In this document: positions 2,733 through 50,727 of the stretch, one piece after another
Numbering within the stretch: position 1 is the first letter of the stretch
How the letters are laid out: each line of letters begins with the position of its first letter
Translations under genes and position numbers: made by a program
Notes under the pieces: generated by a model
The model's database searches: none
What the model saw: the letters and a program-made list of their open reading frames with translations, nothing else
What the model was told of the DNA's origin: nothing
Origin: Paenibacillus amylolyticus
Lineage (GTDB): Bacteria; Bacillota; Bacilli; Paenibacillales; Paenibacillaceae
Assembly (NCBI RefSeq): GCF_029689945.1
Contig: NZ_CP121451.1
Coordinates: 1,488,001-1,552,000 of the forward strand
Direction of reading: 5' to 3'
Length of the DNA: 64,000 nt

Positions 2733-2930
2733 GCCTAACGAACTCAGCACACCTTATTTGCACCGAATTGGCATTATTGTAATCCTAACGAATCTCAGTA
2801 ACCTTATTACAGCCAAAAGTGATCCGAACAGCGCCAATTGGAGCAATATCAACAGATTAAAGCGTTTGAGATTCGTTAGAATACTGAAACCTAGGATTTC
2901 GATGCATTAAGGCTTCTAAGATTCGTTAGC
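2733..2930. repeat. Four-unit palindromic array A
   Basis: Two forward units (CTAACGAACTCAGCACACC near 2735, CTAACGAATCTCAGTAACC near 2785) are followed by two inverted units ending GAGATTCGTTAG near 2879 and AAGATTCGTTAG near 2929. Forward units end in CTTATT. Starts are about 50 bp apart within each pair. The same layout recurs near 11480, 41647 and 50532. No coding potential is seen. Confidence 0.85.
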
Positions 2931-2984
2931 TTAACTTGGGTTAATGCTCATCATAGGTAAACGAATCACTGCTGCAGATATGAA

Positions 2985-3082
2985 CATGGAGTAAAAAACA
3001 TGAAGTAAGAACATAGAGTAGAAAGATGAAGTAAAGAGACCGAATGAAAACATGAAATGAAACTTGAAGTGAAAATGAAACC
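2985..3082 (+). repeat. Purine-rich imperfect tandem repeat
   Basis: A run of degenerate ~11-17 base units built on ATGAAGTA / ATGGAGTA / ATGAAATGA. It lies between repeat array A and the lipoprotein gene. It is low complexity and no gene is supported here. Confidence 0.5.
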
Positions 3083-3226
3083 GTGGGGTTGTATATCTTA
3101 CTGTGTGGTACAATAATCCAAATATGGAGAGTTAGAATATCAAATGAGAAAAACAGATGTAAAAACCAAATGAGACAATGGAATAAACGATGTTCTTACA
3201 GAGGATTGTAGAAAAGGAGGGGTGGC

Positions 3227-3856
3227 ATGAGCCCGAAAAGAGAGTTGAACCGTTTCTTCCCGTTGGTCATATGTCTAGTGATAGCCCTGTGTCTAGGAGC
3301 ATGCGGTTTGGGAACAAACCAGGGACCAGAGGGCGAACCGAAGCGAACGGATAAATATACATATAATTCGGAGCGTAGAGATTTAAAAGGGCGGGTTACA
3401 AAGGAACTGGAATCGTTTCAGGAGCATTCGCCAGAGGAGTACAATTTGACTGCAACTGTGGATGTGAGTCATGTATCCGGAGTTGACCGGATTTCTTATG
3501 AAATATTGGTAAATGAGGTTCGGGTGCCTATGGTAAATGTTATTCAATCCTTCACCCTCGATCCCGAGATGATGAATCGAATCGATGCTGGAGAGCTATT
3601 TCATTCCAATGTGAGCAATACATACGAGGTAAGTCTGGAGCCGGATAAGGAACCGCTTGGATTGGGTTTGGGCAGGAGTTATACTTTGAAGCCGAAGGTA
3701 GAGATCGACAGCAATATCATCCAGCGTTATACAGATATGTATATCAAAATTTCCTATGGACCTCATGATCAGCGAACGGAAGATTATTTCCTTATCCAGG
3801 CGGAGCCTTCTCTGAGAACAATTGAGCTCATGAAGTTATGGGGAAAAGAAGAATAG
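3227..3856 (+). CDS. Putative lipoprotein of unknown function
   Basis: I do not recognise the family. The 209-residue product starts with positively charged residues, a hydrophobic stretch (FFPLVICLVIALCLGAC) and a lipobox LGAC with Cys about 25, so it should be a lipid-anchored exported protein. The mature part is hydrophilic, with predicted beta-rich stretches (YNLTATVDVSHVSGVDRISY) and no recognised catalytic motif. A strong AAAAGGAGGGG ribosome binding site supports the start. The gene sits alone and converges on the unknown gene at 3934. Confidence 0.75.
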   Translation: MSPKRELNRFFPLVICLVIALCLGACGLGTNQGPEGEPKRTDKYTYNSERRDLKGRVTKELESFQEHSPEEYNLTATVDVSHVSGVDRISYEILVNEVRVPMVNVIQSFTLDPEMMNRIDAGELFHSNVSNTYEVSLEPDKEPLGLGLGRSYTLKPKVEIDSNIIQRYTDMYIKISYGPHDQRTEDYFLIQAEPSLRTIELMKLWGKEE

Positions 3857-3908
3857 AAAAAGGCAGCACACTCCAGTTCCGTAACAGGAACCTGAGTAGA
3901 CGCTGCCG
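3857..3908 (-). terminator. Intrinsic terminator between convergent genes
   Basis: Read on the minus strand, GGCAGC / GCTGCC enclose an inner GGTTCCTG / CGGAACTGG hairpin and are followed by TTTTTC. This suits the end of the minus-strand gene at 3934. The T tract is on the minus side only. Confidence 0.7.
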
Positions 3909-3933
3909 ATTCATCTATTTCAAAATGATAACG

Positions 3934-4236
3934 CTATTTTTCTTCAAAATATTGATTCATCGTATCCCACATGTGATTGAACTCACTGCGTTCCATTGAA
4001 AATGCTCCGGGCTTTTCAGGCTTATGATGAGCAGTCGGCTTGAAGTTTAAGTATTCATGGTGTGTAGTGCACTCATAGTTTTTGCTGTTAACAAGGAATT
4101 CAACTCTATCCTTAAAGGGTCTTTCCAGTAATTTAACCACCATGATGTCTCCACTACTGGTGCTTCTTGCAGGAGAATATATCAAAAAGTAACCTTGTTC
4201 AAATCGATATTCAATAGCGATTACAATTACCTCCAT
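3934..4236 (-). CDS. Hypothetical protein, about 100 residues
   Basis: I do not recognise this protein. It is soluble-looking, rich in aromatic and charged residues (MWDTMNQYFEEK at the C terminus), with no membrane segment or motif I can name. The start is uncertain. The first ATG is immediately followed by GGAGGT, which looks like the ribosome binding site itself, so translation may begin a few codons downstream at a non-ATG codon, or a base may be missing here as in many genes of this window. A terminator follows it on the same strand. Confidence 0.55.
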   Translation of the reverse strand: MEVIVIAIEYRFEQGYFLIYSPARSTSSGDIMVVKLLERPFKDRVEFLVNSKNYECTTHHEYLNFKPTAHHKPEKPGAFSMERSEFNHMWDTMNQYFEEK

Positions 4237-4285
4237 TAGAATATAGATCGAATACGATAATATCCGATACTCTCTCTCCGTTTAC

Positions 4286-5029
4286 CTACTCCAGTTCAAA
4301 GGATTCCAGCGTACCCGCCATCCGCAGAACATGATCGCGGTTGAACTGTTTCCGTTTGTCCGCATCCGCGTACTCATCATGATAATGCATCAACACGGTT
4401 TTCTGTCTTACTTCCGCAGGCAGCTGCTCCAGATCTTTCAGGGAGGTATGAGATTTAATCACCAGATCATGCATATGGCATTCATGGAAAACCAGCTGCA
4501 CATCAGAAGCGACCTGTTCTATCCGTTCCTGATCGAGTGTACTGTCTGCACTGTAATAGAAGTAAGGTTTGGCGAGTAGGCCATTGCTGACCATACCAGG
4601 AACATGCTGCGTTCGAAACGTCTCGAACGTCACGCCGCCCAGCTCGAATGTGCCTCCATCTGGCAGGGGAACGACGTCGTAGTAATCACTCATGGTCCGT
4701 TCACCATCCGTTGTGTAGCGCATGCCGGGGGATAGAATGTTCCAGAGCGGGTCTACCAATTGTTCGTGGATGAACAGACGGGGTTTGCGGTCACCCACAA
4801 TTTGGGCGTAATAACCCAACATCTGTACACCGTTAATATGATCCTCATGCAGGTGGGTAACAAAGACGTTGTGAATAGCGGTCATGGGGAATCCATATTC
4901 CTTGAGTGCCTTGGCATTTGATTCCGGAAAATCAATGACCAGATGCGTGTCTTCGAATTCAGCCAACATACTATTGTGGTGCTGCTCTACGCTGAACATG
5001 TCTCCTGTGCCGAGAAAAGTAATTTTCAT
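4286..5029 (-). CDS. MBL-fold metallo-hydrolase
   Basis: This 247-residue protein belongs to the metallo-beta-lactamase fold, in the RNase Z/phosphodiesterase-like branch. MKITFLGTGDMFS is the usual first strand, and THLHEDH (about 58-64) is the HxHxDH metal-binding motif. Further ligands are plausible at the His and Asp residues of YYYSADST and HECHMHD. It should bind two divalent metals in the cytoplasm; the substrate cannot be read from sequence. It is transcribed divergently from uxaC across a ~200-bp region that carries a cre site. An AAGGAGATGAA ribosome binding site lies just before the ATG. Confidence 0.85.
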   Translation of the reverse strand: MKITFLGTGDMFSVEQHHNSMLAEFEDTHLVIDFPESNAKALKEYGFPMTAIHNVFVTHLHEDHINGVQMLGYYAQIVGDRKPRLFIHEQLVDPLWNILSPGMRYTTDGERTMSDYYDVVPLPDGGTFELGGVTFETFRTQHVPGMVSNGLLAKPYFYYSADSTLDQERIEQVASDVQLVFHECHMHDLVIKSHTSLKDLEQLPAEVRQKTVLMHYHDEYADADKRKQFNRDHVLRMAGTLESFELE

Positions 5030-5124
5030 TGCAAATTCATCTCCTTGTGTGGTCTTCAGATCAGCATTCTTGCGTTAAATCCAGTATACCTTGTTCCCGA
5101 ATATATGCCTAAATCAACCTTTTT

Positions 5125-5138
5125 TGATAACGCTATCA
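5125..5138 (+). promoter_or_regulatory. cre site (CcpA operator) upstream of uxaC
   Basis: TGATAACGCTATCA matches the cre consensus TGWNANCGNTNWCA at every position. It lies about 95 bp before the uxaC start, in the divergent promoter region shared with the metallo-hydrolase. CcpA control of a sugar-acid isomerase is expected biology; actual binding is inferred. Confidence 0.75.
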
Positions 5139-5233
5139 TTTTATATTGAACTTTGATGGCAAACAGTGTAGCGTAAAGATGGGAAGTGAACCCATATGAA
5201 CGTAAACTCACCTAAAGGGAGCGTGCGAGGCGA

Positions 5234-6676
5234 ATGAAATCTTTTCTGGATGAACAATTTCTACTGCACAATGAAACGGCGATCAAGTTATATGAGGATT
5301 ATGCCAAAGACATGCCGATTATTGACTATCATTGCCACCTCAGTCCTCAGGAGATCTACGAGAACAAAACCTTCGGCAACCTTACAGAAGCCTGGTTATA
5401 CGGTGATCACTATAAGTGGCGGCTCATGCGCGCGAACGGAATTGAAGAGCAATATGTGACCGGAGGCGAAGGCGTGACCAATTACGATCGTTTCCTGGCT
5501 TACGCCAAAACGGTACCCATGATGATTGGTAATCCGCTGTATGCCTGGTCTCACTTGGAATTACAACGCTATTTTGGTGTCTATGAAGTATTGAATGAGA
5601 CAAGTGCACCCGCCATCTGGGAAAAGGTAAATGCCAAACTGAACAGTGACGGATTCGGTGCACGTGATCTGATTACCAAATCCAATGTCACTGTTGTGTG
5701 CACAACCGATGATCCAACCGATTCGCTGGAGTATCATCTGAAGATTCAGGAAATCGAGGGCTTTGATACCGCCGTATTGCCATCCTTCCGTCCGGATAAA
5801 GGATTGGAATTGAATCGGGATACGTTCACTGAATGGGTGGGCAAGCTGTCGCAGGCATCCGGCAAGGCAATTTCCGATTATGAATCCTTCCTTGCTGCAT
5901 TGGAGTCCCGGGTGGAATTCTTCCATTCCGTTGGCGGCAGAGTCTCGGACCATGCACTCGATTATGTTCCTTACGGCGTGGCTACTCGCGAAGAGGCGGC
6001 TGCGATCTTTGCGAAGGCTCTTGCAGGTCAGAAGGTAACGCGTGAGGAAGAGGACAAGTATAAGACTGTGACGCTGACATTCCTCGGCAAACTGTATGCA
6101 GAGCGCGGCTGGGTCATGCAGTTCCACATCAATGCAGCTCGTAACAACAATACACGGATGTTTGCCAAGCTTGGACCGGATACCGGTTACGATGCCGTCA
6201 ATGATACACCGTTGTCGTCAGCGATGATCGGATTGCTTGATGCGTTGGAGCAGCAACAGGCGTTGCCCAAAACGATTCTGTATTCTTTGAATCCAAGGGA
6301 CAACGAAGTTCTTGCTGCAATCATTGGCAGCTTCCAGGGCGGAGGTATTCCAGGCAAAATCCAGCTTGGTGCAGCATGGTGGTTCAATGATACGAAGGAT
6401 GGTATGATCGCTCAGATGAAGGCACTGGCGAATGTGGGTCTGCTCAGCCGATTTGTCGGCATGTTAACCGATTCTCGCAGCTTCCTGTCATACACGCGGC
6501 ATGAGTATTTCCGCCGTCTGGTCTGCAATCTCATTGGTGAATGGGCTGAACAGGGCGAGGCACCGCAGGATATGGAGCTGCTTGGTCAGATCGTACAGGG
6601 CATCGCCTACAACAATGCAAAAGAATATTTCCCGTTTGCCTCCGTGCTTAAAACGGTCTCTGCTTCACAGTCTTGA
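5234..6676 (+). CDS. uxaC: Glucuronate isomerase
   Basis: This 480-residue protein isomerises D-glucuronate to D-fructuronate and D-galacturonate to D-tagaturonate, the first cytoplasmic step of hexuronate catabolism. The N-terminal DYHCHLSP (His33 and His35) is the conserved metal-binding motif of the UxaC branch of the amidohydrolase superfamily. WLYGDHYKWRLMRANG and WWFNDTKDGM are also family signatures. Length matches the usual ~470. No uxaB, uxaA or kdg genes lie nearby, so the rest of the pathway must be elsewhere. A perfect cre site upstream suggests glucose repression. The gene is followed by a terminator. Confidence 0.95.
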   Translation: MKSFLDEQFLLHNETAIKLYEDYAKDMPIIDYHCHLSPQEIYENKTFGNLTEAWLYGDHYKWRLMRANGIEEQYVTGGEGVTNYDRFLAYAKTVPMMIGNPLYAWSHLELQRYFGVYEVLNETSAPAIWEKVNAKLNSDGFGARDLITKSNVTVVCTTDDPTDSLEYHLKIQEIEGFDTAVLPSFRPDKGLELNRDTFTEWVGKLSQASGKAISDYESFLAALESRVEFFHSVGGRVSDHALDYVPYGVATREEAAAIFAKALAGQKVTREEEDKYKTVTLTFLGKLYAERGWVMQFHINAARNNNTRMFAKLGPDTGYDAVNDTPLSSAMIGLLDALEQQQALPKTILYSLNPRDNEVLAAIIGSFQGGGIPGKIQLGAAWWFNDTKDGMIAQMKALANVGLLSRFVGMLTDSRSFLSYTRHEYFRRLVCNLIGEWAEQGEAPQDMELLGQIVQGIAYNNAKEYFPFASVLKTVSASQS

Positions 6677-6757
6677 TGCATAACAAGCTCATCTAATCAT
6701 GCAATTTATGCAATAAGAAAGTCCGTCTTGTTTCTTTCATTTTATTTATTATATATA

Positions 6758-6816
6758 AAGCTCCCATGTCATACCCCGGGTTATCATGAACCGGAGGATG
6801 AAATGGGGCTTTTTTG
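6758..6816 (+). terminator. Intrinsic terminator of uxaC
   Basis: AAGCTCCCATGTCAT pairs with ATGAAATGGGGCTT, followed by a T run. The next ~160 bp (6817-6978) are AT-rich, with nothing else recognised. Confidence 0.75.
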
Positions 6817-6978
6817 TGGGTTTTATGGACGGCATTGCACACAATAAATATAACAAGCTTCGATGAAGGTACAAAGAAAAGTCATAGAAGGCAAAAAGAA
6901 AGTAGTCACAAAATCAAGTGCATTTAGGTTCTGGGTTAAAGGGTTATGTTAAAGGATTAATTGGTCATTTTTAGTTGT

Positions 6979-7007
6979 TTGACTTTCGCTATTCGCCAGC
7001 ATATACT
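6979..7007 (+). promoter_or_regulatory. Sigma-A-type promoter of the MarR/ABC operon
   Basis: TTGACT and TATACT are separated by exactly 17 bp and lie about 110 bp before the MarR start codon. Confidence 0.75.
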
Positions 7008-7027
7008 TAGTACACCTAATTAATTGT

Positions 7028-7062
7028 ACATCTATTTAATTGAAGTGCTATTTAATAGATGT
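7028..7062. promoter_or_regulatory. Candidate MarR operator
   Basis: A 9-bp perfect inverted repeat, ACATCTATT at 7028-7036 and AATAGATGT at 7054-7062, begins about 20 bp after the -10 hexamer. This position suits autoregulation by the MarR protein encoded next. Binding is inferred. Confidence 0.5.
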
Positions 7063-7114
7063 CCTATGATGTTGGATGTCTATGAAATGATAAAGAATGA
7101 AGGAGGAATCCATT

Positions 7115-7657
7115 ATGACGGGTATAGATCCGGTCGCTCAGAAGCTTTTGTACTCCATTATGCAGTTTAATAAAGGCAAATGGAGGCAACATAAACCTCA
7201 TGGGCGTAATCACAATGAAATTATGGTGTTGGCTTGTTTGCTGCATGGTACGCATCCAGGAGAACGTCTGGACTGGCGGGATAATCCGCCAGATTTTGAG
7301 AGAGAACTGAATGAGAGTCGCCCAGGGCTAAAAGTATCGGAAATCAGTGCGTTACTGCGGGTGAAATCACCAACCATTACCCCGGTTATTCGTGGGCTTG
7401 AGGATGAAGGGCTTGTCGAACGGACCATGGACCCGACGGATCGCCGTGCTGTGCGTATAACCATTACGGAGGCAGGGCGGAACATTATACGGGCAGCGCA
7501 TGAGGAGCGCATGCAGACGTTTAACCAGCTCGTCCAGCATTTGGGTGAGGAAGAAAGCATTCAATTGACGGAGTTGTTGACCAAGGTTTATACCTTTTTT
7601 GATACAGTGGTTTTCCAACAGACGGAGACGTCCACACAAGGAGATGATACGCCATGA
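7115..7657 (+). CDS. MarR-family transcriptional regulator
   Basis: A 180-residue winged-helix regulator. The DNA-binding part reads LKVSEISALLRVKSPTITPVIRGLEDEGLVERTMDPTDRRAVRITITEAG, split here into its parts: recognition helix around SPTITPVIRGLE, and wing DPTDRRAVRI, the MarR hallmark. I place the start at 7115 because AAGGAGG lies 8 bases before that ATG; an in-frame ATG at 7097 would contain the ribosome binding site. The stop overlaps the start of the ABC exporter gene by four bases, so it is the first gene of that operon and probably represses it until a toxic compound binds. Confidence 0.9.
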   Translation: MTGIDPVAQKLLYSIMQFNKGKWRQHKPHGRNHNEIMVLACLLHGTHPGERLDWRDNPPDFERELNESRPGLKVSEISALLRVKSPTITPVIRGLEDEGLVERTMDPTDRRAVRITITEAGRNIIRAAHEERMQTFNQLVQHLGEEESIQLTELLTKVYTFFDTVVFQQTETSTQGDDTP

Positions 7658-9380
7658 TGAAACTGTTTCGCATGCTGAAGCCTTACCGCATACCCATTAT
7701 CTTCATTCTGGTATTGGTACTGTTTCAGTCGCTTGCTGAATTGTACCTGCCTACGTTAATGGCAGATATCGTGAATTTCGGCATCATTAAAGGGGATATC
7801 CCTTATATTTGGCAGATTGGTGGATGGATGTTGGTCATCGCGATTGGTGGAACAGCGTGTTCGGTGATCGCCAGTTACCTCTCCTCCCGCACGGCGGGTG
7901 GATTTGCCAAACAACTTCGCAGCAGAGTATTCCGTCATGTGGAGAACTTCTCGCTTCAAGAGTTCGATAAGATGGGTACAGCCTCACTGATTACGCGTAC
8001 GACGAATGATATTACGCAGGTGCAGAACGTACTTACGATGATGCTGCGCATGATGATTATGGCTCCGCTCATGTGTATCGGGGGGTCTTCATGGCGGTAT
8101 CGCAGGACGCCAAATTATCTACGATCTTCCTGGTCGTACTGCCTGTACTGGGCGGAGCCATTGCGCTCATTGGTGCCAAGGGTTTGCCTTTGTTCAAAAC
8201 CATTCAGAAAAAGCTGGACCGACTCAACCTGGTGCTGCGTGAGCAGTTAACAGGGATTCGCGTCGTGCGCTCCTTTAACCGTGGAGAGCATGAGCGTGTA
8301 CGCTTTAACGGCGCCAACACGGAACTGAGAGATTCTTCGATCAAAGTCAATGTGCTCATGGCGACCATCATGCCTGTTATGATGCTGGTTATGAACTTTT
8401 CGATGATTGCCATTCTTTATTTTGGCGGAATGCGGATCGACAGTGGCAATATGAACATCGGTGCACTGATTGCCTTCATTCAATATGCGATGCAAATCAT
8501 GTTCTCACTGATTATGGTTTCCATGATCTTTGTCATGATCCCAAGAGCCTCAGCATCGGCAGAACGGATCAACGAAGTGCTTGATATGCAGCCGGATCTT
8601 AGCAATCCCGAGCAGCCTAGTGGCATGAAATCCATGCAGGGCATGATTGAGTTCGACCATGTAACTTTCCGTTATCCGGGCGCCGAGAATCCGGCATTGT
8701 CCGATATATCCTTCACAGCTCGCTCAGGTGAGACAACAGCAATTATTGGGGGTACGGGTTCCGGGAAATCGACATTGCTCAGTCTTATTCCACGATTCTA
8801 TGATGTGACCGAAGGCCGTGTTCGGGTCAATGGTACGGATGTGCGTGAACTTCGGCAGGAAGATCTTCGTGCCAAAATTGGCTTTGTCCCACAGAAGGCA
8901 GTCCTCTTCACAGGTACAATTGCGGAGAATATCCGTCACGGGAAAGACGATGCCACAATGGATGAAGTTGTTCATGCGGCTCGTACGGCCCAGGCAGAGA
9001 ACTTCATTACCGAAATGAAAGACGGATATGACAGCCTTATCGCACAAGGGGGTAACAACGTGTCTGGTGGACAAAAACAACGTCTGTCCATCGCTCGCGC
9101 ACTTGTTCGCCGCCCGGAAGTCTATATCTTTGATGACAGTTTCTCTGCGCTTGATTTCAAAACGGATGCCAAACTTCGTGCTGCGCTGAAGTCCGAAACG
9201 ACAGAAGCGGCTGTGCTGATTGTTGCCCAGCGCGTAAGTACGGTAATGGATGCTGATCGCATTCTGGTCATGGATGAGGGCCGAATTGTCGGTTCAGGAA
9301 CACATAAAGAGCTGCTGGAGCACAATGAAGTGTATCGCGAGATTGTATCCTCCCAGCTGACAGAGGAGGAGATCGCATGA
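7654..9380 (+). CDS. Heterodimeric ABC exporter, degenerate-site subunit (frame broken once)
   Basis: A multidrug-type half-transporter with an N-terminal membrane domain and a C-terminal ATPase. The frame breaks at a run of six G (8080-8085). With seven G the protein reads MCIGGVFMAVSQD without interruption and totals 575 residues, the normal length. The ATPase has Walker A GGTGSGKST, signature VSGGQKQR and Walker B VYIFDDSFSALD. The Asp after the Walker B Asp, in place of the catalytic Glu, is the mark of the degenerate-site partner in BmrCD/TM287-288-type heterodimers. Its stop overlaps the next gene's ATG. The break looks like a sequencing slip rather than real decay. Confidence 0.88.
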
Positions 9381-11479: not shown

Positions 11480-11673
11480 CTAACGAATCCTAAACACCTT
11501 ATATCGAGGATTGCAACCCACTGTCGATTCTAACGAACTTGAGACACTCTATTGCTCTGAAAAGTAGCGAATAAGCAGCGATAAACGTCAGATTGACGAA
11601 ATAAGGTGTCTACAGTTCGTTACATTTTCGAAATGGCTGAAAATGACCAAATAGCGTGTGCTCGCTTCGTTAG
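11480..11673. repeat. Four-unit palindromic array B
   Basis: Forward units CTAACGAATCCTAAACACC (11480) and CTAACGAACTTGAGACACT (11530) are followed by inverted units ending CTACAGTTCGTTAC (11624) and CTCGCTTCGTTAG (11673). Within-pair spacing is 48-50 bp. It lies between the ABC operon and the convergent gene at 11772. Nothing else is recognised in the 517-bp gap apart from the terminator. Confidence 0.85.
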
Positions 11674-23182: not shown

Positions 23183-23366
23183 TATGAATCTAAAGATTTA
23201 CACGAAAACGTAGAGGACAGAAAGAACCTGAAGAAGCAGAAGCGTTCGCCTTTATCTCCAGATTTTCACCTTTGTAAAAGTGAATAAAAAAATCTGGAGA
23301 TAACAGCGATCGGAAGGTTGTTCTGTCATCGAAGTAACAAGCGTAAATCAGCTTTATTCCAATTAA
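23183..23366. repeat. Long palindromic dispersed element, copy 2 of 4
   Basis: Outer arms TAAAGATTTACAC and its near complement GCGTAAATCAGCTTTA, then GACAGAA / TTCTGTC, then a core stem TCTCCAGATTTT / AAAATCTGGAGA with a CAC/GTG tip. Compared with copy 1, paired bases have changed together. It begins 7 bp after the stop codon of the minus-strand gene at 23373. Confidence 0.85.
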
Positions 23367-27394: not shown

Positions 27395-27565
27395 ACTCCT
27401 TACGTATTGCGCTGGTAGTGTAGGGGACGAAATCGATTCTGAAGAAGCGAAGCGTTCGCCTTTATCCTTGGATTTTTCCTTCTATTAAGAAGGAGATCAA
27501 GAAAATCCAAGGATAACAGCGATCGTAAGAACGATTCGTAACCGGAACGGCTGATGCGGTGAACG
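27395..27565. repeat. Long palindromic dispersed element, copy 3 of 4
   Basis: The core stem reads TCCTTGGATTTT / AAAATCCAAGGA with tip CCTTC/GAAGG. Where copies 1 and 4 have CCCCGG/CCGGGG-type pairs, both sides have changed to TT/AA. The outer arms have diverged and the boundaries are approximate. It lies inside the purine operon, between the nucleoside hydrolase and the first permease. Confidence 0.8.
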
Positions 27566-41646: not shown

Positions 41647-41781
41647 GCTAACGAATCTACCGCACCTTATTGAGCTGATTAACTTCGATTACGAATTCTA
41701 ACGAATCTCAACAGCGTTATTGGTTCATATAGTGGGTGATAAGCGGTAAAATGCCGCTATTCACACAGAATAACGTCTCTC
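41647..41781. repeat. Four-unit palindromic array C, left part (split by IS3 element)
   Basis: Forward units CTAACGAATCTACCGCACC (about 41648) and CTAACGAATCTCAACAGCG (about 41698), plus the first half of the third, inverted unit (AATAACGTCT at 41769-41778). The remainder resumes after the IS element at 43069. Confidence 0.8.
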
Positions 41782-41806
41782 TGGACCTATGTCAAAAAAG
41801 TAGACA

Positions 41807-42643
41807 CTACGCTGCGGATTTGTCCGTAAAATTCATCGCAAAACGAGCAGGGGAAAGATAACCTAGTGAGCTATGCATTCGCTTACGGTTGTAGTAGAAC
41901 TCAATGTATTGGTAGATAGCGGTATAGGCCTCTTCCATCGTCTTAAACCGAGGGTTACAGTAAATGAGTTCCTTCTTTAAAATACTGTGCCATGACTCAA
42001 TACAGGCGTTATCGTAACAGTTTCCTCGGCGGCTCATACTGGATTCCATACCGTATAATTTCAGTTGCTCCACGTATTCTTTTGACGTGTACTGAGAGCC
42101 GCGATCCGAGTGATGGAGTAATCCCGGAGCGGGGCGTTTGGCCTTATAAGCTTCCTCCAATGCACCCATCACCAAACTGGTTTCCATATGGTTATATAGA
42201 CGCCAGCCTACAATTTCCCGTGTGCACAAATCCAGAACGCTGGCGAGGTAAAGACGACCTCCTCGGCAAGGAATGTAAGTGATGTCGGTAACCCATACGG
42301 TATTCGGTTTGGATGTTTTGAATTGCTGATTCAGCGTATTCGGCGCAAGGGGATGGTCGTGTTTGGAATCCGTCGTCTGAACGCGATATTTGGGCATGAC
42401 CACGGAACGTAGATTCATTTGACGCATGTATATACTGACGGTACGTGAAGAGATTCGCAACCCTTCTAAATGGAGCAGATACGTAATTTTGGGGCTTCCA
42501 CACCGCATCTGGTGGTCGTAAAAATGATAACGAATACGCTTCATAACCTCGTCTTTGCGGTTCTGCCGCTTGCCGGTTCGGTCCATTCGCCATTTGTAAT
42601 ATCCGCTCCGTGATACTTGAAAGGTTCTGCACATCTTCTCCAA
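41807..42643 (-). CDS. IS3-family transposase, OrfB (DDE catalytic part)
   Basis: A 278-residue integrase-core protein. The catalytic triad is visible: VWVTDITYIP (first Asp), LLHHSDRGSQYTS (second Asp) and ESWHSILKKELIY (Glu, 35 residues later). The HTH_21 region lies near the start (SRSGYYKWRMDRTGK). It is normally made as an OrfAB fusion by programmed -1 frameshifting; the frame is open upstream of the ATG as far as the slippery site at about 42714-42721. Confidence 0.93.
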   Translation of the reverse strand: MEKMCRTFQVSRSGYYKWRMDRTGKRQNRKDEVMKRIRYHFYDHQMRCGSPKITYLLHLEGLRISSRTVSIYMRQMNLRSVVMPKYRVQTTDSKHDHPLAPNTLNQQFKTSKPNTVWVTDITYIPCRGGRLYLASVLDLCTREIVGWRLYNHMETSLVMGALEEAYKAKRPAPGLLHHSDRGSQYTSKEYVEQLKLYGMESSMSRRGNCYDNACIESWHSILKKELIYCNPRFKTMEEAYTAIYQYIEFYYNRKRMHSSLGYLSPARFAMNFTDKSAA

Positions 42644-42681
42644 AGGAAACTCGGAGCGATGGTCTTCTACAAACTGAAATC

Positions 42682-42999
42682 TTAGCTCTTTGGTTTGCTG
42701 AAGATGTGCACTGCTTTTTTTACAATCGCCAGTTCTTCTTGTGTATCCGCAAGCGTGTGCTCTTTCTCTTGAAGCAACCGACGCATCTCTTGAAGCTCTG
42801 CTTCCAGTTCCTTCACTCGATCTACGCTAGCAACAGGCTCATGTTTTAGTTCGCGGTACTTACTCATCCATTGGTGTAACGTACTTTTTGGAATGTTGAG
42901 TTCTTCTGCCAAATCTCCAAGTGTCTTTGTCTGCTCTTGAATGAATTTGACCGTTTGTTTCTTGAATTCTTCGTTATATCGTTGCCGCTGTTCACCCAT
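42682..42999 (-). CDS. IS3-family transposase, OrfA (DNA-binding part)
   Basis: A 105-residue protein with a helix-turn-helix (LGDLAEELNIPKSTLHQWMSKY) and a leucine-zipper-like coiled coil (VKELEAELQEMRRLLQEKE). It recognises the element ends. GGAGGT lies before the ATG. Near its 3' end the minus strand reads A7G (A AAA AAG slippery heptamer). Slipping -1 continues as VKKSSAHLQQTKELRF into OrfB, giving a fusion of about 397 residues. Confidence 0.92.
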   Translation of the reverse strand: MGEQRQRYNEEFKKQTVKFIQEQTKTLGDLAEELNIPKSTLHQWMSKYRELKHEPVASVDRVKELEAELQEMRRLLQEKEHTLADTQEELAIVKKAVHIFSKPKS

Positions 43000-43068
43000 G
43001 TGGACACCTCCGTTAATCTTATTATCCTTCCGTCCGTTAACGGGTGTCCACTTTTTATTCTAGCTCCA

Positions 43069-43136
43069 TCTGATTCGTTAAAACTCAAATGCAGGTAAAT
43101 AACCGCTAATAGCGTGTACACAGTTCGTTAGATCCT
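43069..43136. repeat. Four-unit palindromic array C, right part
   Basis: The rest of the third unit (TCTGATTCGTTA at 43069-43080) and the fourth, inverted unit (AATAGCGTGTACACAGTTCG, from 43113, ending in TTAG) follow the IS3 right end. Confidence 0.8.
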
Positions 43137-43200: not shown

Positions 43201-43235
43201 AGTTACCTACTTCAGAGCAAAAGCGCTTGAAGTGC

Positions 43236-43426
43236 CATATAAGATGAACATTTAAGATCAAACGTTAACGGAGGGGACAGAAAAAACTGAAGAAGCGAAG
43301 CGCTCGCCTTTATCCCCGGATTTTCCCATTGCTAGATAGGATTCAAAAAAATCCGGGGATAACAGCGATCAGAAGTTGTTCTGTCACCGCAGTGGCTTAG
43401 TTGATCCCGCCTACTTATCTTATATG
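43236..43426. repeat. Long palindromic dispersed element, copy 4 of 4
   Basis: This 191-bp element has terminal repeats CATATAAGAT (43236-43245) and ATCTTATATG (43417-43426), close to those of copy 1. The core stem is TCCCCGGATTTT / AAAATCCGGGGA. It ends 7 bp before the stop codon (minus strand) of the gene at 43434, the same arrangement as copy 2. Confidence 0.9.
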
Positions 43427-43433
43427 AATGCCA

Positions 43434-43934: not shown

Positions 43935-44150
43935 AATATCTCTCCTTCTCAATACAAGATCAAATGTCCGAACGGTCGTATGTAGAGCAATTACTTTTGT
44001 TACTCACAGCATACCATGAAGTGGAAAAGTTGATCCTCGGTCTTTGGAGTTAAAGTGAACCTAGACCAAAGTCTAGGTGCGAAATAGACTTTTTCATGTA
44101 TACACGCATGGCATCCTACAAGCTGTACCTATAAGATGTTCGTAATCGGT

Positions 44151-45196
44151 TTACTCCGGTGCAGGCTGGATATGCTGCTTCAGGTCTGCGCGGTATTGCC
44201 CAGGCGTCTGACCAGTCCACTTTTTGAAGGCATTCTGAAATGCGCTTTGCTCCGAAAAATGCAGGGCATAGGCAATATCCCCCAGCGAATAGGTTCCTTT
44301 CTGCAAATAACGCAGTGCCAGTTCCATGCGTACCTGAACGGAAATCTTGTTATACGTTGTATTTTCTTCACGTAATCGGCTTTGTAGTGTGCGAATACTC
44401 ACGCCCAGATGCTCAGCGGTGTGTTGTAATGTGGGAAAAAGGTTGGAAGGCTCTCCATCATCCACCGACTTACTTTGCCGGAGAAGGGTTGAGAGGAATG
44501 CAGCTCATCCTTGCTTTCCTGAGCCATGGTTTCAAAGACCCTCAGCATTTTTGCATCTGAATATAATACCGGCTGCTCCAGAATATCTTTATGCATCCGC
44601 AGAACTGTATGGGTATCCCCGAATTGAGGCACTATTCCGAACATGCCAACATAAGGAGATAGATCGCCTGAAACAGCGGGTGCTTGATGACTAAACCGGA
44701 CCTCTTTCAATTCCACCCGGCGATTCGCCAGTTTGCTAACCAAATACACTATGGAGACGGCCATATCCTCCACGCAATGACGGGACATCTGCTTCTCCGA
44801 TTTGTGCAAAGACAATTGGAGGATCAAATCCTCTCCGCTTACGTCCCAACTCAGATTGAATCCGCTATATAGAATGATGTTATATCGTTGATAAGCAGCG
44901 AGTGCATCTCCAATCGTCTTGGAATGCATCATGACGTAACCGGGAAGTCCCAGATCCGCGAAGTCCAGCAGCTGTCCCTGGTTCAATCCAAAATACAGAT
45001 CATCTGCATATTGGGCAGCATACTGCATAATACGTTCCAATTCTTCAACCGGAATTCGGGCTTCTGGATTCTGCATCATAGCAGGATCTAAGCCAGCGTA
45101 CTCAAAAAACGCATTAGGTTCATGTCCTTTGTTCACCAGCGTCTTCATAATGGGATACAACATGGAAATGGACACACCGTGATTGTGGTTACTCAT
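44151..45196 (-). CDS. AraC-family regulator (frame broken once)
   Basis: A 348-residue regulator. The N-terminal ~200 residues resemble the arabinose-binding-like domain of OruR/ToxT-type AraC proteins (ISMLYPIMKTLVNKGHEPNAFFEYAGLD). The C-terminal double helix-turn-helix includes TAEHLGVSIRTLQSRLREEN and YALHFSEQSAFQNAFKKWTGQTPGQYR. The frame breaks in the A run at 44436-44440; one more A gives SLPTFFPTLQHTAEHLG. I place the start at 45196 after AAAGGGGGTAGC. The divergent flavoprotein gene at 45331 is the likely target. Confidence 0.85.
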
Positions 45197-45330
45197 GCTA
45201 CCCCCTTTTGCGCAAATCAGCAATGTTTTGGCGTCGTTGATCATTTGTTTATGTATAACATCACTTTATGCTTGTGATATGCCTGCTTCTTCGGCCTTCA
45301 TGAACATAATTATACAGGAGGAACAGATGT

Positions 45331-45928
45331 ATGAAATCAAATATTCTGGTGATTAATGGCCACCCTGATCCGCAAAGTTACTGCAAAGCACTAACGGAAG
45401 CCTATATAAAAGGAGCCCGGAAATCAGGCAGCTTAGTGGAGTTGGTGGATTTGAGCCACATTCAGTTCAATCCCAATCTTCAGTACGGGTACCGTCAGCG
45501 GACGGAACTGGAGCCTGATTTGGTGAAAGCTCAGGAATGGATCCGATGGGCGGATCATTTGGTGTTTGTCTATCCGACGTGGTGGGGAACGATGCCCGCG
45601 ATTCTGAAAGGGTTTATTGATCGGTGTTTTTGCCCGACTTCGCGATGAAATATCGGGACAACTCGCCGCTGTGGGACAAATTGTTGAAAGGGAAGTCCGC
45701 TCATATCATCGTGACCATGGATACGCCCCGCTGGTACAATCGATTCATCTACAGACATGCAGGTCATCGGGTTATGAAAACAAATATTCTTCAATTCTGT
45801 GGCGTATCCCCGTACGTGTGACCGAGATTAGTCCAATCAGGAACTCAACCGAAGTGTTTCGTCAGAAATGGCTGGATAAATTAATGGAAATGGGGGTGAA
45901 GCAGGGGGGAGGAAATAAACCCCTATGA
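45331..45928 (+). CDS. NAD(P)H:quinone oxidoreductase-like flavoprotein (two frame breaks)
   Basis: A flavodoxin-fold protein (KefF/YwrO/MdaB-like). VINGHPDPQSYCKAL is the phosphate-binding loop, FVYPTWWGTMPAILKGFIDR the FMN and active-site region, and MDTPRWYNRFIY follows. Two missing bases split it: GG at 45623-45624 (restoring FIDRVFLPDFAMKYRD) and near 45811-45812 (restoring GVSPVRVTEISPIRN). With both, the protein is 199 residues, the family norm. It should reduce quinones or nitro compounds with NAD(P)H and FMN. It is divergent from the AraC gene, with an AGGAGGAACAG ribosome binding site. Confidence 0.87.
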
Positions 45929-46026
45929 CGACCAGTCAGTGCATTCCAACCAACGAGTTTAGCGCAGCCATTCAGCAGCTGATGTAGTTAGCTTTAGCTA
46001 TATCACATCGTTAGCTACGTAAAGAT

Positions 46027-46057
46027 GCCCACTCCGCGAAGAGTGGGCCTTTTCTCA
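46027..46057. terminator. Intrinsic terminator between convergent genes
   Basis: GCCCACTC pairs with GAGTGGGC, followed by CTTTTCTCATTT on the plus strand. It lies 20 bp before the end of the convergent cation efflux gene. Confidence 0.75.
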
Positions 46058-46077
46058 TTTATAGAAGACGGTAATTC

Positions 46078-47078
46078 TTATTTCACCACATCGGAATGCT
46101 TCTTGCCCCAGCTGTTCACACCGTCATCTTCAATGATGGAGATGGCTGCGTCGGCGATGTCGGGATTCGTCATCAGTTTCTCCTGAATACGGAACTTGAT
46201 GTCATCCGCATCCGCCAGGCTTAGTCCTTTGGTCAACTCAATCAGACCTTCCACATGATAATAACGGCCTTCCTGAATGATACGCATCATCTGAATATCG
46301 GCAACGTGTGAGTCTGCCAGAATGGTTTGGGACACTTTGTCCTCAATATCCTGGGGAGCCGCTACCCCGATTAATCCGATCATATTATCATAACCGACAC
46401 GGAAGGCTACAGCGATCATCAGACATCCAATAATTGTCGTCACGATCCCATCAAGCAATGCAAAGTTGGTCAAGGCAATAACCACGACAGAGATTAACGC
46501 GAGCGTGGCACCCAGTACAGCAACAACATCTTCGTAGAATACGAGACGGGTTGGTGGCGCAGCACGGCCTACATTTTTGATGGCAGCAGGGACCAAGGCC
46601 AATCCGGAAGCTTTGGGTGCGCGGGCTTCTTTTAGAATTTCCTTCATGGCTTTGATCAAAATGGCCCCATCGATCAGAATGTTCAAGACGAGCACACCGA
46701 TGTTAATCCAGAGACCCCGGAATGGCCGGCAGGATGCTGGAGCAGGTGAATCCCCTCATGAATGGTCTCATAGGCCATAATGGTCACGACAATCACGGCG
46801 ATCATGCAGAAAATGTTAATGACCCGTCCGAATCCGGTCGGGAAGCGGCGTGTAGGTTTTTTCTCAGACAACACACTTCCGACAAAGACAAATCCTTGGT
46901 TAATGGCATCGGCCAATGAGTGCATCGCCGAAGCGAACATGGCGCCACTGCCACTGAATAGGAAGGCTCCCCCTTTGCAGAGAGCAAGAACCGCATTGCC
47001 TGCCATCGCTACGGCGGAGGATGTGTTTCCTTTTTTGACGAGAGACATAAAGCTCTCAGACTTCGGTTGTTCAGCCAC
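46078..47078 (-). CDS. Cation diffusion facilitator transporter (frame broken once)
   Basis: A 333-residue CDF-family metal exporter with six helices and a C-terminal cytoplasmic domain. FASAMHSLADAINQG carries the HxxxD metal-site pair of helix II, and YEDVVAVLGATLALI the helix V pair. The C-terminal ferredoxin-like domain starts near VAAPQDIEDKVSQTIL. The frame breaks near 46724-46730; one extra base restores PFRGLWINIGVLVLNILIDG. It probably exports Zn, Fe or another divalent cation in exchange for protons; the metal is not predictable. Confidence 0.87.
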
Positions 47079-47221
47079 TTCGGTTGTTCCTCCCAGATCA
47101 ATGAATTAGGTGTAGAAAAGGCAGTCTTATCTAACAGCATGTGCATTTCCACTAAATGTTATTATAACCGCTTTGACATATCCCAGCATTATGCAAAAAA
47201 GGTCATATCATCATAGGGGTC

Positions 47222-47818
47222 TCAGTATTCAATGGCATCCAAAGCACGTAAGTTCCGGTTGGATTGTTCCAAAAGCTCCGTAAACGTTCCAGCCACGTAG
47301 TACACAAAATCCGGATCATGCACGTACATAATAATTTGCCCGTATGAACCTTCTTCTGTCGGATCAAAGTCGAACATCAGATACAGTGATCCACCTCCGA
47401 GCATGCCAAACGTAACCCATTTTTTCTGAAAAAGGTAGGGTTTGATTCGGGGATCAAGTTCTCTGATTTCTTCTTCGGTAAAATAATCATCCATGCGGTT
47501 CTCCACCAGCGTGGACTGCCCTTGTTGAATCCTTTCCAGGGACAACAGATAAAATGGCTCCGATTCCTGTCCATTCTCAAGGCTTGGATACAAGACGTGA
47601 AAGGCATAACCGCTCCCATTTTTACGTTTATAAAACGCACGAAAATCAGAAGGGAAACGAATGCCGTGTTCCTGCTCGAATGCGTCGAGCTGCTCATCCG
47701 TCACGCCTTCAAACTGGCGATATGCCTCCAGAAGCTCCCGGTTTTCCTCATCCTGGACCTTTTCCTCCAGCAACATATCCAGTTCATCCATCAATTCATA
47801 TATACGTTGTTCTGACAT
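47222..47818 (-). CDS. SMI1/KNR4-family protein
   Basis: A 198-residue SMI1/KNR4 (SUKH) domain protein. The N-terminal acidic helix is followed by GVTDEQLDAFEQEHGIRFPSDFRAFYKRKNG, the characteristic FEQEHGIxFPsDFRaFY region, then an aromatic-rich second half (YVHDPDFVYYVAGTFTELLE). SUKH proteins are often immunity proteins to polymorphic toxins, but no toxin gene lies next to it, so it may be an orphan or a housekeeping member. GGAGGGAATGGC precedes the start. The 329-bp gap upstream of it contains only the terminator at 48052. Confidence 0.87.
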   Translation of the reverse strand: MSEQRIYELMDELDMLLEEKVQDEENRELLEAYRQFEGVTDEQLDAFEQEHGIRFPSDFRAFYKRKNGSGYAFHVLYPSLENGQESEPFYLLSLERIQQGQSTLVENRMDDYFTEEEIRELDPRIKPYLFQKKWVTFGMLGGGSLYLMFDFDPTEEGSYGQIIMYVHDPDFVYYVAGTFTELLEQSNRNLRALDAIEY

Positions 47819-48051
47819 GCCATTCCCTCCGTATGAGCTATTCAGATAATATGGTGAGTGATATGCGAGCCTACTGTGCCTGATTTCACCTCATATTATA
47901 GTTATAATCCGCAAAAGCACACAAGAAACCGGAGTCCTTGCTTACATCCGACAATGGTCTCATTATTCAAAGGCGGTTGTTGCATAAATCGCACATCTGG
48001 CCCCATCCCAATCGATTATGTACAACCATCACGAAAGTCGCTCCTAACAAC

Positions 48052-48102
48052 AAATAAGCATGGTTTACAGGGGCAGCCCATGTAAACCACGCTTACTTAT
48101 TT
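48052..48102 (-). terminator. Intrinsic terminator of the dioxygenase operon
   Basis: AATAAGC-TGGTTTACA pairs with TGTAAACCA-GCTTATT around GGGGCAGCCCA. It lies 45 bp after the stop of the minus-strand dioxygenase gene. Confidence 0.7.
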
Positions 48103-48147
48103 ATCTATCTACTATATAAATGAAACTAACCTTTTACATCGTCCCCT

Positions 48148-48918
48148 TTACTCAAACTTCCAACAGGACAAGCTCAGGTTGCCATACTGATAGGCTTTGA
48201 ACAGCAGGGATGCCTGCTTATTCTGGTCTCCCGCGCCCATGGCGAGCAAAAGCGGTACAAAATGCTCCGGCGTAGGCACGGCGGCTTGCGCTGAAGGCGC
48301 CAGTGTATCATAAGAGAAGAGAGACTCTGTATCCCAACACACCAGTTTGTCATGCAGCCAGTTATCGAACTCGGATGCCCACGGATCAACGCCGTTACTT
48401 TCCCAGTTCAATCGACGCAGGTTGTGAACGGTTCCGCCGCTGCCAATCACAAGAATGTCTTGCTCCCGCAAGGAAGCGAGCGCCTGACCAACCTGGTATT
48501 GCTGCTCACCTGTCAGATAACGATTCACAGACAAGGCAACTACGGGAATATCCGCATCCGGGTAAAGCAAGCGCAGAACAACCCAGGCACCGTGGTCCAG
48601 GCCACGAACATCATCCGTTTGTACCGGAATCCCGGCTTCTGCCAACAAACGCTCTACTTCGGCAGTGGTTTCTGCCTGCCCTTGAGCTGGATATTTAATC
48701 TGATATAGTTCAGGCTGGAAACCGCCAAAATCATAAATGGTTTCGTAATTGGCTACGGAAGATACAAGCTGAGTTGTGGATTCCCAGTGAGCAGAGAACA
48801 ATACGATGGCTTTGGGTTTCGGTAGCTCCTGTCCAAGTTTCTGTAAAAATTCAGTATACGCATTCTCCTCGAGCGCCAGTGATGGGGCACCGTGAGCAAT
48901 AAACAGGGATGGCATCAT
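48148..48918 (-). CDS. ygiD: LigB/DODA-type extradiol ring-cleavage dioxygenase
   Basis: A 256-residue protein of the 4,5-DOPA dioxygenase group, which opens catechol-type rings with non-heme iron or zinc. LFIAHGAPSLAL and IVLFSAHWEST carry the metal-ligand His residues, GLDHGAWVVLRLLYPDADIPV the third, and VIGSGGTVHNLR is also conserved. It matches E. coli YgiD in length and motifs. The physiological substrate is uncertain. Its ATG overlaps the stop of the esterase gene (TAATG), so both are made from one transcript. Confidence 0.88.
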   Translation of the reverse strand: MMPSLFIAHGAPSLALEENAYTEFLQKLGQELPKPKAIVLFSAHWESTTQLVSSVANYETIYDFGGFQPELYQIKYPAQGQAETTAEVERLLAEAGIPVQTDDVRGLDHGAWVVLRLLYPDADIPVVALSVNRYLTGEQQYQVGQALASLREQDILVIGSGGTVHNLRRLNWESNGVDPWASEFDNWLHDKLVCWDTESLFSYDTLAPSAQAAVPTPEHFVPLLLAMGAGDQNKQASLLFKAYQYGNLSLSCWKFE

Positions 48919-49616
48919 TATGAGTTCAGTCCTTTCAGATCTTCATTAGGATTTTCGTTCAGGTCTTCGGTAGTCAGATTGGCATCCACCCGAAGCCATT
49001 GTTGGAATCGTTGATATAGATCGGGAGTCACCTGATGCCCACCGTTGTAAGGAACATAGGTGACATGATCGGTATGTTGACGGAAGAATTCGGCGTTGTC
49101 TTCGCCCAGTTGCAGCGGGAATAGATGATCCTGATCCCCATGGGAAATGAACACAGACAGCTCCGGGTCGGGTTGCAGCTTGTACTCGTCTTTCACAAAT
49201 TGCGGGATGTACCCACTCATCGCCACAATGCCTTTGATGGCATCGCCCATCACCAGCGATAGGGTCATCGCCATAATGGCGCCCTGGCTGAATCCGGCGA
49301 TATAACGCCGCGTGGGATCAATTGCATATTTGCCGGACAGATCAACAATCAATTGTTGTAGTCCCAGCACGGAGGCATCATACAATTCACGGATGGGGTT
49401 GCCAATGCTTTTGATCTGAAAATAAGCATAACCACTACCCTGAACGACAGGTCCACGGATGGCAACAATAATAAAATCAGACTGCAGGGGCTCCATTAAA
49501 CGAAGCATATCTTGCTCATCGGATCCCATGCCATGTAAGGCGAAGATGACAGGATAACGCTGATCTGAATTGTAATGGGACGGTAATCGGACTTCATGTA
49601 TATAAGGAGAATTCAT
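48918..49616 (-). CDS. Alpha/beta-hydrolase, phospholipase/carboxylesterase family
   Basis: A ~232-residue esterase. The catalytic triad is visible: YIAGFSQGAIMAM (nucleophile Ser in GFSQG), SHGDQDHLFPL (Asp) and YNGGHQVTPD (His). VIFALHGMGSDEQDMLRL supplies the oxyanion loop. I place the start at 49616 (MNSPYIHEV), since the upstream in-frame GTG lies inside the AGGTGG ribosome binding site. Coupling to the dioxygenase suggests hydrolysis of an aromatic ester or of a ring-cleavage product, which is inference. Confidence 0.87.
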   Translation of the reverse strand: MNSPYIHEVRLPSHYNSDQRYPVIFALHGMGSDEQDMLRLMEPLQSDFIIVAIRGPVVQGSGYAYFQIKSIGNPIRELYDASVLGLQQLIVDLSGKYAIDPTRRYIAGFSQGAIMAMTLSLVMGDAIKGIVAMSGYIPQFVKDEYKLQPDPELSVFISHGDQDHLFPLQLGEDNAEFFRQHTDHVTYVPYNGGHQVTPDLYQRFQQWLRVDANLTTEDLNENPNEDLKGLNS

Positions 49617-49724
49617 TGAAAACACCACCTGATGAGGATTGAGTTACAACTATCGTTTCGTCAATAAAGTTCACTAATATGAAATAAATATTCTTATTTA
49701 TGAACAAAATTTATCATGCTTTCA

Positions 49725-49753
49725 TTGTAGGGTCAATACTTTTTTTGTATGAT
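49725..49753 (+). promoter_or_regulatory. Promoter of the XRE-cupin regulator
   Basis: TTGTAG, exactly 17 bp, TATGAT, 160 bp before the gene start. It lies in the divergent region with the esterase/dioxygenase operon. Confidence 0.55.
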
Positions 49754-49912
49754 GAATATATGTTGTTTATAAGAAACCTTGAATGGGTTTGTTTTAAAAG
49801 GAGTTTCGCTGTGTAATCGGATGATATTTGTAGAGACACGTGGCAAATGGATAAACCTGAAGACAACAAGCGTGCGCCTGGTGTCTTATATAGAGAAGGG
49901 GAGGGACGCCAT

Positions 49913-50452
49913 ATGGATATTGGCTTGGCAATTCGTACGATCCGCAAGCAGAAACAGATTACAATCATGCAGATGTGTGAGGGAACCGGTTTGTCCAAAG
50001 GTTTTATCAGCAACGTAGAAAATAACAAAACGTCACCTTCCATTGCTACCCTTGAAAGTATTGCGGATTATCTGGAGGTGCCACTTCCCTACTTGCTGCT
50101 GTCACCGGAGCAACGGATGAACGTGGTACGCAAGAACGAGCGCAAGGAAACGACGGCCGGAAGTGGTCAGATCAAAGTGCAGCACCTTACCGCCAAAGGC
50201 GCCATGCGTATGTCCATTGTAGAATTGCCCCCAGGCGCATCAACAGGGATTAGCAAACATGCCGGGGAGGAGAGCCATCTGGTGTTGCAGGGCCAGATTC
50301 GTGCGGAGCAATGCGAAGATGTCGAAATTCTTGAAGCGGGGGATTCGTTCACCTGGAATGCGATTGTGCCCCATGAAGTGACCAATATCGGGGAGGAGCC
50401 TGCGGTGGTACTTATCGCGGTGTCCAAGGAATTAGGTCTGGATCATTTATAG
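49913..50452 (+). CDS. XRE-family regulator with C-terminal cupin domain
   Basis: A 179-residue regulator. The helix-turn-helix occupies ~1-60 (IGLAIRTIRKQKQITIMQMCEGTG, then SKGFISNVENNKTSPSIATLESIADYL). The cupin sensor is about 95-179 (MSIVELPPGASTGISKHAGEESHLVLQG and GDSFTWNAIVPHEVTN). The start at 49913 follows GGGGAGGG. This architecture is common in regulators of amino-acid, polyamine or aldehyde metabolism. The divergent esterase/dioxygenase operon is its likely target. Confidence 0.9.
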   Translation: MDIGLAIRTIRKQKQITIMQMCEGTGLSKGFISNVENNKTSPSIATLESIADYLEVPLPYLLLSPEQRMNVVRKNERKETTAGSGQIKVQHLTAKGAMRMSIVELPPGASTGISKHAGEESHLVLQGQIRAEQCEDVEILEAGDSFTWNAIVPHEVTNIGEEPAVVLIAVSKELGLDHL

Positions 50453-50457
50453 CATAT

Positions 50458-50526
50458 AAAAAGGACGTCGCCCCAGGCATGAACATGCGGACATGCATAC
50501 ATGTACAATGGGGAAACGTCCTTTTC
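50458..50526 (+). terminator. Intrinsic terminator of the XRE-cupin gene
   Basis: AAGGACGT-CCCC pairs with GGGG-ACGTCCTT, enclosing a CATGNACATG-rich loop, and ends in TTTTC. Confidence 0.75.
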
Positions 50527-50531
50527 ATATT

Positions 50532-50727
50532 TCTAACGAACTGAGTGAGCCTTATTAGATGATTCTAAGCAGATATTGTGATGTAACGAATCTCAGACGC
50601 TTTATTGCACTACTCTGCATCTAATTGGGCTATTTTCCACATCCTTCTGGCGGAATAACATCGCTGGGATTCGTTACGTTTCTCATTTCCTGCAAAAGAG
50701 CACAATAAGGTGCTAGAGATTCGTTAG
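50532..50727. repeat. Four-unit palindromic array D
   Basis: Forward units CTAACGAACTGAGTGAGCC (50532) and GTAACGAATCTCAGACGC (50583) precede inverted units ending TGGGATTCGTTAC (50677) and TAGAGATTCGTTAG (50728). Within-pair spacing is 51 bp for both pairs. It fills the gap between convergent XRE and SDR genes. Confidence 0.87.

Follow-up and report, generated by a model that had tools for sequence, protein, structure and literature searches.

Four-unit arrays in the window

The stretch analysed here, which we call the window, is 64,000 nucleotides of Paenibacillus amylolyticus DNA (C1:1488001-1552000 of a 6.83-Mb genome, labelled G000 and called the home genome below), and our subject is a family of repeat arrays in it, each composed of two forward (F) and two inverted (R) copies of a 24-bp unit. 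Array A (2735..2929; F1 2735-2758, F2 2785-2808, R3 2856-2879, R4 2906-2929) is a 195-bp dyad lying between tandem genes. The other three lie between convergent genes: array B (11480..11673; F1 11480-11503, F2 11530-11553, R3 11600-11623, R4 11650-11673), which is 194 bp long; array C (41648..43131; F1 41648-41671, F2 41698-41721, R4 43108-43131), which is interrupted; and array D (50533..50727; F1 50533-50556, F2 50583-50606, R3 50654-50677, R4 50704-50727), again a 195-bp dyad. In arrays A and D the units start at +0, +50, +121 and +171, giving start-to-start spacings of 50-71-50, and in array B these are 50-70-50. Array C follows the same plan, except that its R3 unit is split into a left piece (41769-41781) and a right piece (43069-43081) by a 1.29-kb IS3-family element.

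The unit, CTAACG..CGTTATT, is an imperfect palindrome, TAACG-N11-CGTTA (columns 2-6 and 18-22), which suggests one dimer per unit. The unit coordinates confirm the initial annotation, which had described a repeat family of four arrays in the order forward, forward, inverted, inverted, three of them (B, C and D, by our simple gene caller) between convergent genes. Its unit pattern, CTAACGAAYC(N~9)CTTATT, has three matches in the window in strict form and none in 100 shuffles, and the 48-51 bp that it gave as the within-pair spacing is borne out, although the real spacing is tighter, at 50 bp within the halves.

Arrays in the home genome

A slightly looser form of the unit pattern has 26 matches genome-wide and a reversed control has none. 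A unit matrix and an array model were built from 19 home-genome arrays of exact geometry; array B and three arrays with one-base shifts were left out of the model, and likewise out of the covariation count and the first period test described below. Across a contiguous 700 kb, 92 units score at least 12 bits, compared with none in one Markov-resampled copy. Eighty-eight of these form 22 intact arrays, three are pieces of array C, and a single one (C1:1577382) stands outside any four-unit array. At 3.2-3.6 Mb, a further 400 kb, all 12 units of at least 12 bits belong to three arrays. The initial annotation had held that its reading would fail if units elsewhere in the genome were mostly single or randomly spaced; over the 700 kb and the further stretches examined they are neither. 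Partial or decayed arrays do occur (L311, L313, L325, L327). Across the whole genome the array model has at least 150 matches, many arrays being matched on both strands. Altogether at least 94 arrays have been placed in the home genome, 93 of them mapped and one more near C1:6648636, in the origin half. Arrays also occur in tandem at a pitch of about 196-350 bp (G000 C1:1381949/1382277/1382603; L284 17793-18521; G036 C1:411033-411892), and four viral contigs bear an array.

Helical spacing and phased spacers

To describe the spacing across the centre we took 184 distinct arrays with a score of at least 52, many of them from the home genome, with the centre scanned from 58 to 75. The spacing is 71 in 94 arrays, 70 in 14, 72 in two and 69 in one, and 61 in 60 and 60 in 13; it thus falls at 69-72 in 111 of the 184 and at 60-61 in 73, and in none at 62-68. 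With these two classes, the 195-bp and 185-bp sizes of the array differ by about one helical turn at the centre.

The spacers had been described as unconserved, which holds for their letters, as paralogous arrays agree at only 34% of spacer positions (standard deviation 5%, maximum 49%). Their A/T content is nevertheless patterned, with peaks near columns 32-33, 42-43, 82-83 and 92-93 and low values between. With columns 46-50, which adjoin the second unit, omitted, the A/T period is 10.00 bp in 47 non-redundant arrays of the 195-bp class (bootstrap 9.98-10.04) and 10.02 bp in 36 arrays of the 185-bp class (9.98-10.06); with all columns kept, the figures are 10.02 (10.00-10.06) and 10.04 (10.00-12.38), respectively. 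The phasing power in the 19 model arrays is 1.23, while 2000 shuffles of the spacer letters reach at most 0.13, none being as high. A period below 10.5 bp is the expectation for a left-handed wrap such as that of the nucleosome, and a wrap of the array, at a period of 10.0 bp, would probably be left-handed.

A genome-wide letter difference

We surveyed the unit letters in 40 of the 44 known array-bearing genomes of the genus (43 known by pattern and G031 by the model; G075, G328, G344 and G393 were left out), counting half-arrays in which both units read TAACGAT or both read TAACGAA and leaving mixed or other-letter pairs uncounted. Five genomes (G010, G020, G029, G159 and G245) have 472 half-arrays of TAACGAT and one of TAACGAA (472/473), while the other 35 genomes have 1173 of TAACGAA and four of TAACGAT (1173/1177). 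A letter that is nearly uniform within each genome suggests a single trans-acting recogniser whose specificity has changed. In L223, L224 and L225, array A has the same flanking genes and all four units read CTAACGAT, so that the letter has changed in place. The spacers of these three copies are 49-54% identical to those of the window, compared with the 34% found between paralogs, which indicates that the arrays were not replaced whole. Together with the two centre classes one turn apart, to which exceptions are few, and the 10.0-bp A/T phasing, this letter difference strongly supports the suggestion in the initial annotation of protein binding on one helix face.

Maintenance and loss of arrays

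For array A, orthology was judged from 21 loci having a uxaC protein of at least 90% identity, from 80 fetched. Array A is in the same intergenic region in ten of the 21, one copy (L211) being decayed at R4, and the other 11 are without it. Among the window and the nine intact orthologs (45 pairs), mean identity is 83% in the units and 66% in the spacers, and the units are the more conserved in all 45 pairs; the array has been kept at one place across relatives with 78-93% coding identity. This indicates that selection keeps the units in place, at least at array A. Where array A is missing in L212 and L220, 7-mers from the unit ends are no more frequent than chance (two or more occur in 157 of 500 shuffles). 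Of the 21 loci, L211 alone has an ortholog of array B. G002 and G023 have array D in its place, with units 91-93% and spacers 81-86% identical to those of the window, and the array is absent in G011, G016 and G022 (L356, L354 and L357, compared with L352 and L353), with the first 11 bases of F1 left in place. This remnant shows that array D was formerly present in the three genomes and then deleted. No clean insertion site was found at array B or D.

Occurrence in relatives

Within the order, 172 of 392 genomes, from 32 of 49 genera, contain a generic pattern made up of two TAACG at 50 bp and the inverse of this pair; a reversed control has no match. Within the genus, 43 of 69 genomes contain it. 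Of 35 other genomes in the genus the array model matches 20, and three pattern-negative genomes (G031, G042, G051) nevertheless have arrays by the model. In a class-level draw, 28 of 398 genomes match, and the only one outside the order is G431 (family f29), with 13 arrays of the CTAACGGACAT type; the other family members in the draw, G411 and G474, are without arrays, and those of G431 may have come by transfer. In nine genomes of other families, picked because they matched, most matches span about 185 bp, and the unit cores include CTAACGGAAC, CTAACGGACAC, CTAACGGCGG and CTAACGGTTG. Often one core is used throughout an array; mixed arrays occur in G105, G115 and G122. Both array sizes can occur within one genus (e.g. 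G003, G072 and G077).

Chromosomal position

In 1.23 Mb, none of 35 arrays overlaps a called gene, by a gene caller that assigns 75% of bases to genes. Nineteen lie between convergent, 14 between tandem and two between divergent genes, whereas the room available for a 195-bp element is 18.6% convergent, 62% tandem and 19% divergent. The enrichment at convergent gene pairs that the initial annotation had proposed checking is thus present (p = 2e-6, or 2e-5 with one tandem triple counted once).

The replication origin lies near 1.06 Mb, as judged from the skew flip, DnaA boxes and a noc gene next to a second ParB-family gene. The dnaA gene was not found, and an open reading frame considered for it encodes a gluconate transporter. 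The origin-proximal half holds 71 of the 93 mapped arrays, five of which (38341, 211900, 369690, 1039300 and 1529648) come from a listing that reaches 3.28 Mb, the part that holds the origin; without them the count is 66 of 88. Arrays seen as TAACGAA pairs fall in the origin half in 24 of 27 cases in G025 and 23 of 24 in G011, provided that the contig begins at the origin, as the arrays shared with the home genome suggest. Terminus-ward, the pattern is one of depletion and not of absence, and another possible explanation of it is that DNA near the origin is older and stable. Noc and SlmA sites are likewise sparse towards the terminus, and for this reason our first guess at a function is that the arrays mark or anchor the chromosome.

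Dispersal and insertion sequences

Some arrays are dispersed copies. In family iii, eight copies share about 297 bp (L287-L294; G000 C1:224000-3050800), and the whole array lies inside a repeat with GGCTGTCTC.. ends that resembles a miniature inverted-repeat transposable element (MITE). In family ii, the seven copies compared have about 200 bp in common, and a few bp beyond the array edges they are no longer alike. Similar dispersed array copies are also found in G184, G244, G071 and G224.

The insertion sequence (IS) in R3 of array C occupies 41782..43068 on the minus strand, comparison with three further copies fixing its ends to one or two bases, and it carries transposase genes at 41807-42643 (-), matching rve, and 42682-42999 (-), matching HTH_Tnp_1. 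Four genome copies are found by the left end (G000 C1:38508, 1529783, 1758248 and 6648701), three of them inside arrays (two near a unit centre) and the fourth about 30 bp outside an array. The chance of such placement is about 2e-10, or 5e-8 if a quarter of the genome is open to insertion, a figure made after the fact. Targeting of REP (repetitive extragenic palindromic) elements by other insertion sequences is described in excerpts of PMC1525189. In G025 (C1:449822-451304) the halves of an array are 1290 bp farther apart than usual, perhaps through the same IS3-family insertion.

The window also holds a second repeat family, with the inverted repeat CGTTCGCCTTTATCC..GGATAACAGCGATCG in three to four copies (800-910, 23229-23339, 27439-27529 and 43287-43397), and at 4286-5029 (-) a gene for a metallo-hydrolase matching the anti-Pycsar Apyc1 model PF23023 at 112.7 bits (cut-off 50).

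Alternative explanations

The main rival explanation is that the array is a selfish non-autonomous mobile element, with units serving as the transposase sites of a transpososome and with geometry and phasing kept only because lineages that transpose leave copies. Since arrays do spread, this reading keeps weight: families ii and iii, in their sharp boundary and their MITE-like repeat, speak for it, as do the dispersed copies in four other genomes, the patchy presence, the several unit types per genome and the 13 arrays in one genome outside the order. Yet array A has stayed in place among relatives with its units better conserved than its spacers, all four of its units changed type where they stood, and the absence of array D from three genomes is a deletion scar and not an empty target. 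Around family ii no target duplication was seen by eye, and the home-genome stretches read contain no larger element bounded by array halves. On balance we find the selfish reading unlikely, if deserving of serious attention. A further proposal is a homing or conversion system, in which the binder would cut or recombine at the units and spread its preferred letters by gene conversion. The concerted letter of each genome would be accounted for in this way, as would the likeness of paralogous copies only within the array, but array A spacers in the TAACGAT relatives, at 49-54%, are closer to the window's than paralogs are on average (34%, maximum 49%), and we consider this proposal very unlikely.

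The initial annotation had also offered a structured transcript end, with units 1-4 and 2-3 paired as nested stems. The stems can indeed form, although no better than four copies of any one motif would form them. As a structured RNA or a single-strand hairpin (a terminator, or a REPIN, a REP doublet forming a hairpin), the array would explain why its units are inverted copies, why arrays A and D directly follow terminator-like hairpins (by eye) and why arrays are frequently between convergent genes. In the 19 model arrays, however, partner units form 78.9% standard pairs, compared with 79.3% after partners are shuffled; there is no excess of compensatory changes, and no measure differs from the shuffles. 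Without covariation of partner units the hairpin is not supported, and the covariation count led us to reject it. The 10.0-bp phasing, moreover, is a property of duplex DNA, and the window has no match to any of 4227 Rfam models at the gathering score. A linked REP-associated tyrosine transposase (RAYT), which had been proposed as well, was not found in the home genome, and the gene is present in 12 of 20 array-bearing genomes and 9 of 20 array-less ones, so that such a link is rejected. We give the RNA or hairpin reading almost no credence. Strong sites for DNA gyrase or topoisomerase IV, of the kind of the Mu strong gyrase site (SGS) or BIME-2 (bacterial interspersed mosaic element), would suit a position between convergent genes, and the gyrase motif also has phased GC/AT content, with a period given in excerpts of PMC6379681 as 10.75 bp. 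Relative to its value at 10.0, the power of the arrays at 10.75 is 0.14 in the 195-bp class and 0.22 in the 185-bp class, and a conserved enzyme leaves both the specific 24-bp units and the genome-wide letter difference unexplained, so that a gyrase site appears highly improbable.

A proposed wrapped complex

Our preferred reading is that the array is a chromosome-structuring site, where a predicted dimeric protein would occupy the four units and wind the DNA around itself, probably in a left-handed sense; we think this probable. One trans-acting, sequence-specific and probably dimeric protein would bind each array, each 24-bp unit taking one dimer, so that all four dimers would share one face of the helix, the two dimers of a half being separated by five turns and the two inner ones, across the centre, by six or seven. 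The 185 or 195 bp would be wound around the dimers in a nucleosome-like manner, with A/T-rich stretches turned inward every 10.0 bp. The cell may keep about 100 of these complexes between genes, the majority in the half of the chromosome nearer the origin. Their most likely function would be to mark, compact or anchor the chromosome, or else to hold supercoils. We infer the protein, the wrapping and the hand of the wrap, and can only guess at the benefit of the arrays to the cell; our preferred guess is that they act in occlusion or anchoring, as the sites of Noc, SlmA or RacA do. A more specific version, on which we are evenly divided, is a sequence-programmed bacterial analogue of the nucleosome, in which a dedicated predicted protein winds about 100 fixed 185-/195-bp elements left-handed and marks or organises the origin-proximal chromosome, while its specificity drifts and the sites follow by parallel substitution.

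Several observations weigh against the wrapped-complex reading. No binder was found, and no promising gene recurs beside the arrays: in the 1.5-kb flanks of 75 array loci the widest gene family (seven loci, five genomes) looks AraC-like by eye, an abundant kind; in 20 array loci of about 15-20 kb the widest families are, by eye, parts of ABC transporters and other common proteins; and the eleven start-side neighbour genes in the home genome, translated and read by eye, include no obvious candidate. The spacing has exceptions among the matches listed, with centres of 65 and 63 in G063 (C1:1778563 and 3228001) and of 55 in G226 (C1:1490104), and the bootstrap range for the 185-bp class extends to 12.38 once all columns are included. 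Of the mapped arrays, 22 of 93 lie in the terminus half. At array D the contrast between units and spacers is smaller, and in one of three pairs (G002-G023) the spacers, at 92%, exceed the units, at 90%. The generic pattern is missing from 220 of the 392 genomes of the order, which together with the loss of single arrays indicates that arrays are dispensable. Some genomes have several unit types side by side, sometimes inside one array, and the dispersed families ii and iii fit a mobile element as well. Separately, G063 has a similar-looking copy with a centre of 71 at 6179046.

No report of such elements was found in the PMC full-text literature, which leaves most subscription journals outside its coverage, and no tested known family fits the architecture. 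If the proposal is correct, bacteria have a sequence-addressed, nucleosome-like wrapping element. Its exact geometry should make the protein findable by pull-down, and the one-base difference between the two sets of genomes would be a natural experiment in how a DNA-binding protein and scores of its sites evolve together. A role in organising the chromosome or in division, which the origin-rich pattern raises, can be tested.

Comparison with known systems

Wrapping by the nucleosome and by the Lrp family is characterised by A/T phasing near 10 bp and dyad symmetry, with four dimers possible. The arrays have the same approximately 10-bp phasing and dyad symmetry and could likewise take four dimers, but unlike these systems their positions are fixed by four sequence-specific sites. 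RacA ram sites are dispersed anchoring sites of the same type as Noc and SlmA sites, and all three are single short palindromes, whereas the arrays are four sites over 195 bp, and close to its origin the home genome encodes a Noc of its own. What the arrays share with the Noc (NBS) and SlmA (SBS) binding sites, as these are described in excerpts of PMC4331003 and PMC4117426, is that tens of dispersed palindromic sites for one protein are depleted near the terminus.

MITEs and transposon ends carry repeated transposase sites. The arrays resemble them in their dispersed copies and in their outer units, which are inverted copies as terminal inverted repeats are; they differ in that no target duplication was seen at family ii, array A is maintained between species and array D has left a deletion scar. 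The gyrase motif, Mu SGS and BIME-2 similarly have GC/AT content phased about a centre, at a period of 10.75 and without sequence-specific 24-bp units, in contrast to the 10.0 bp and the units of the arrays. REP, BIME and REPIN elements, according to excerpts of PMC1525189 and PMC3116915, also have many intergenic copies in inverted arrangement and serve as insertion-sequence targets. Unlike them, the arrays place four sites over 185-195 bp at a constant helical spacing, have duplex phasing, show no selection for pairing, and occur in a home genome in which no Y1 transposase was found.

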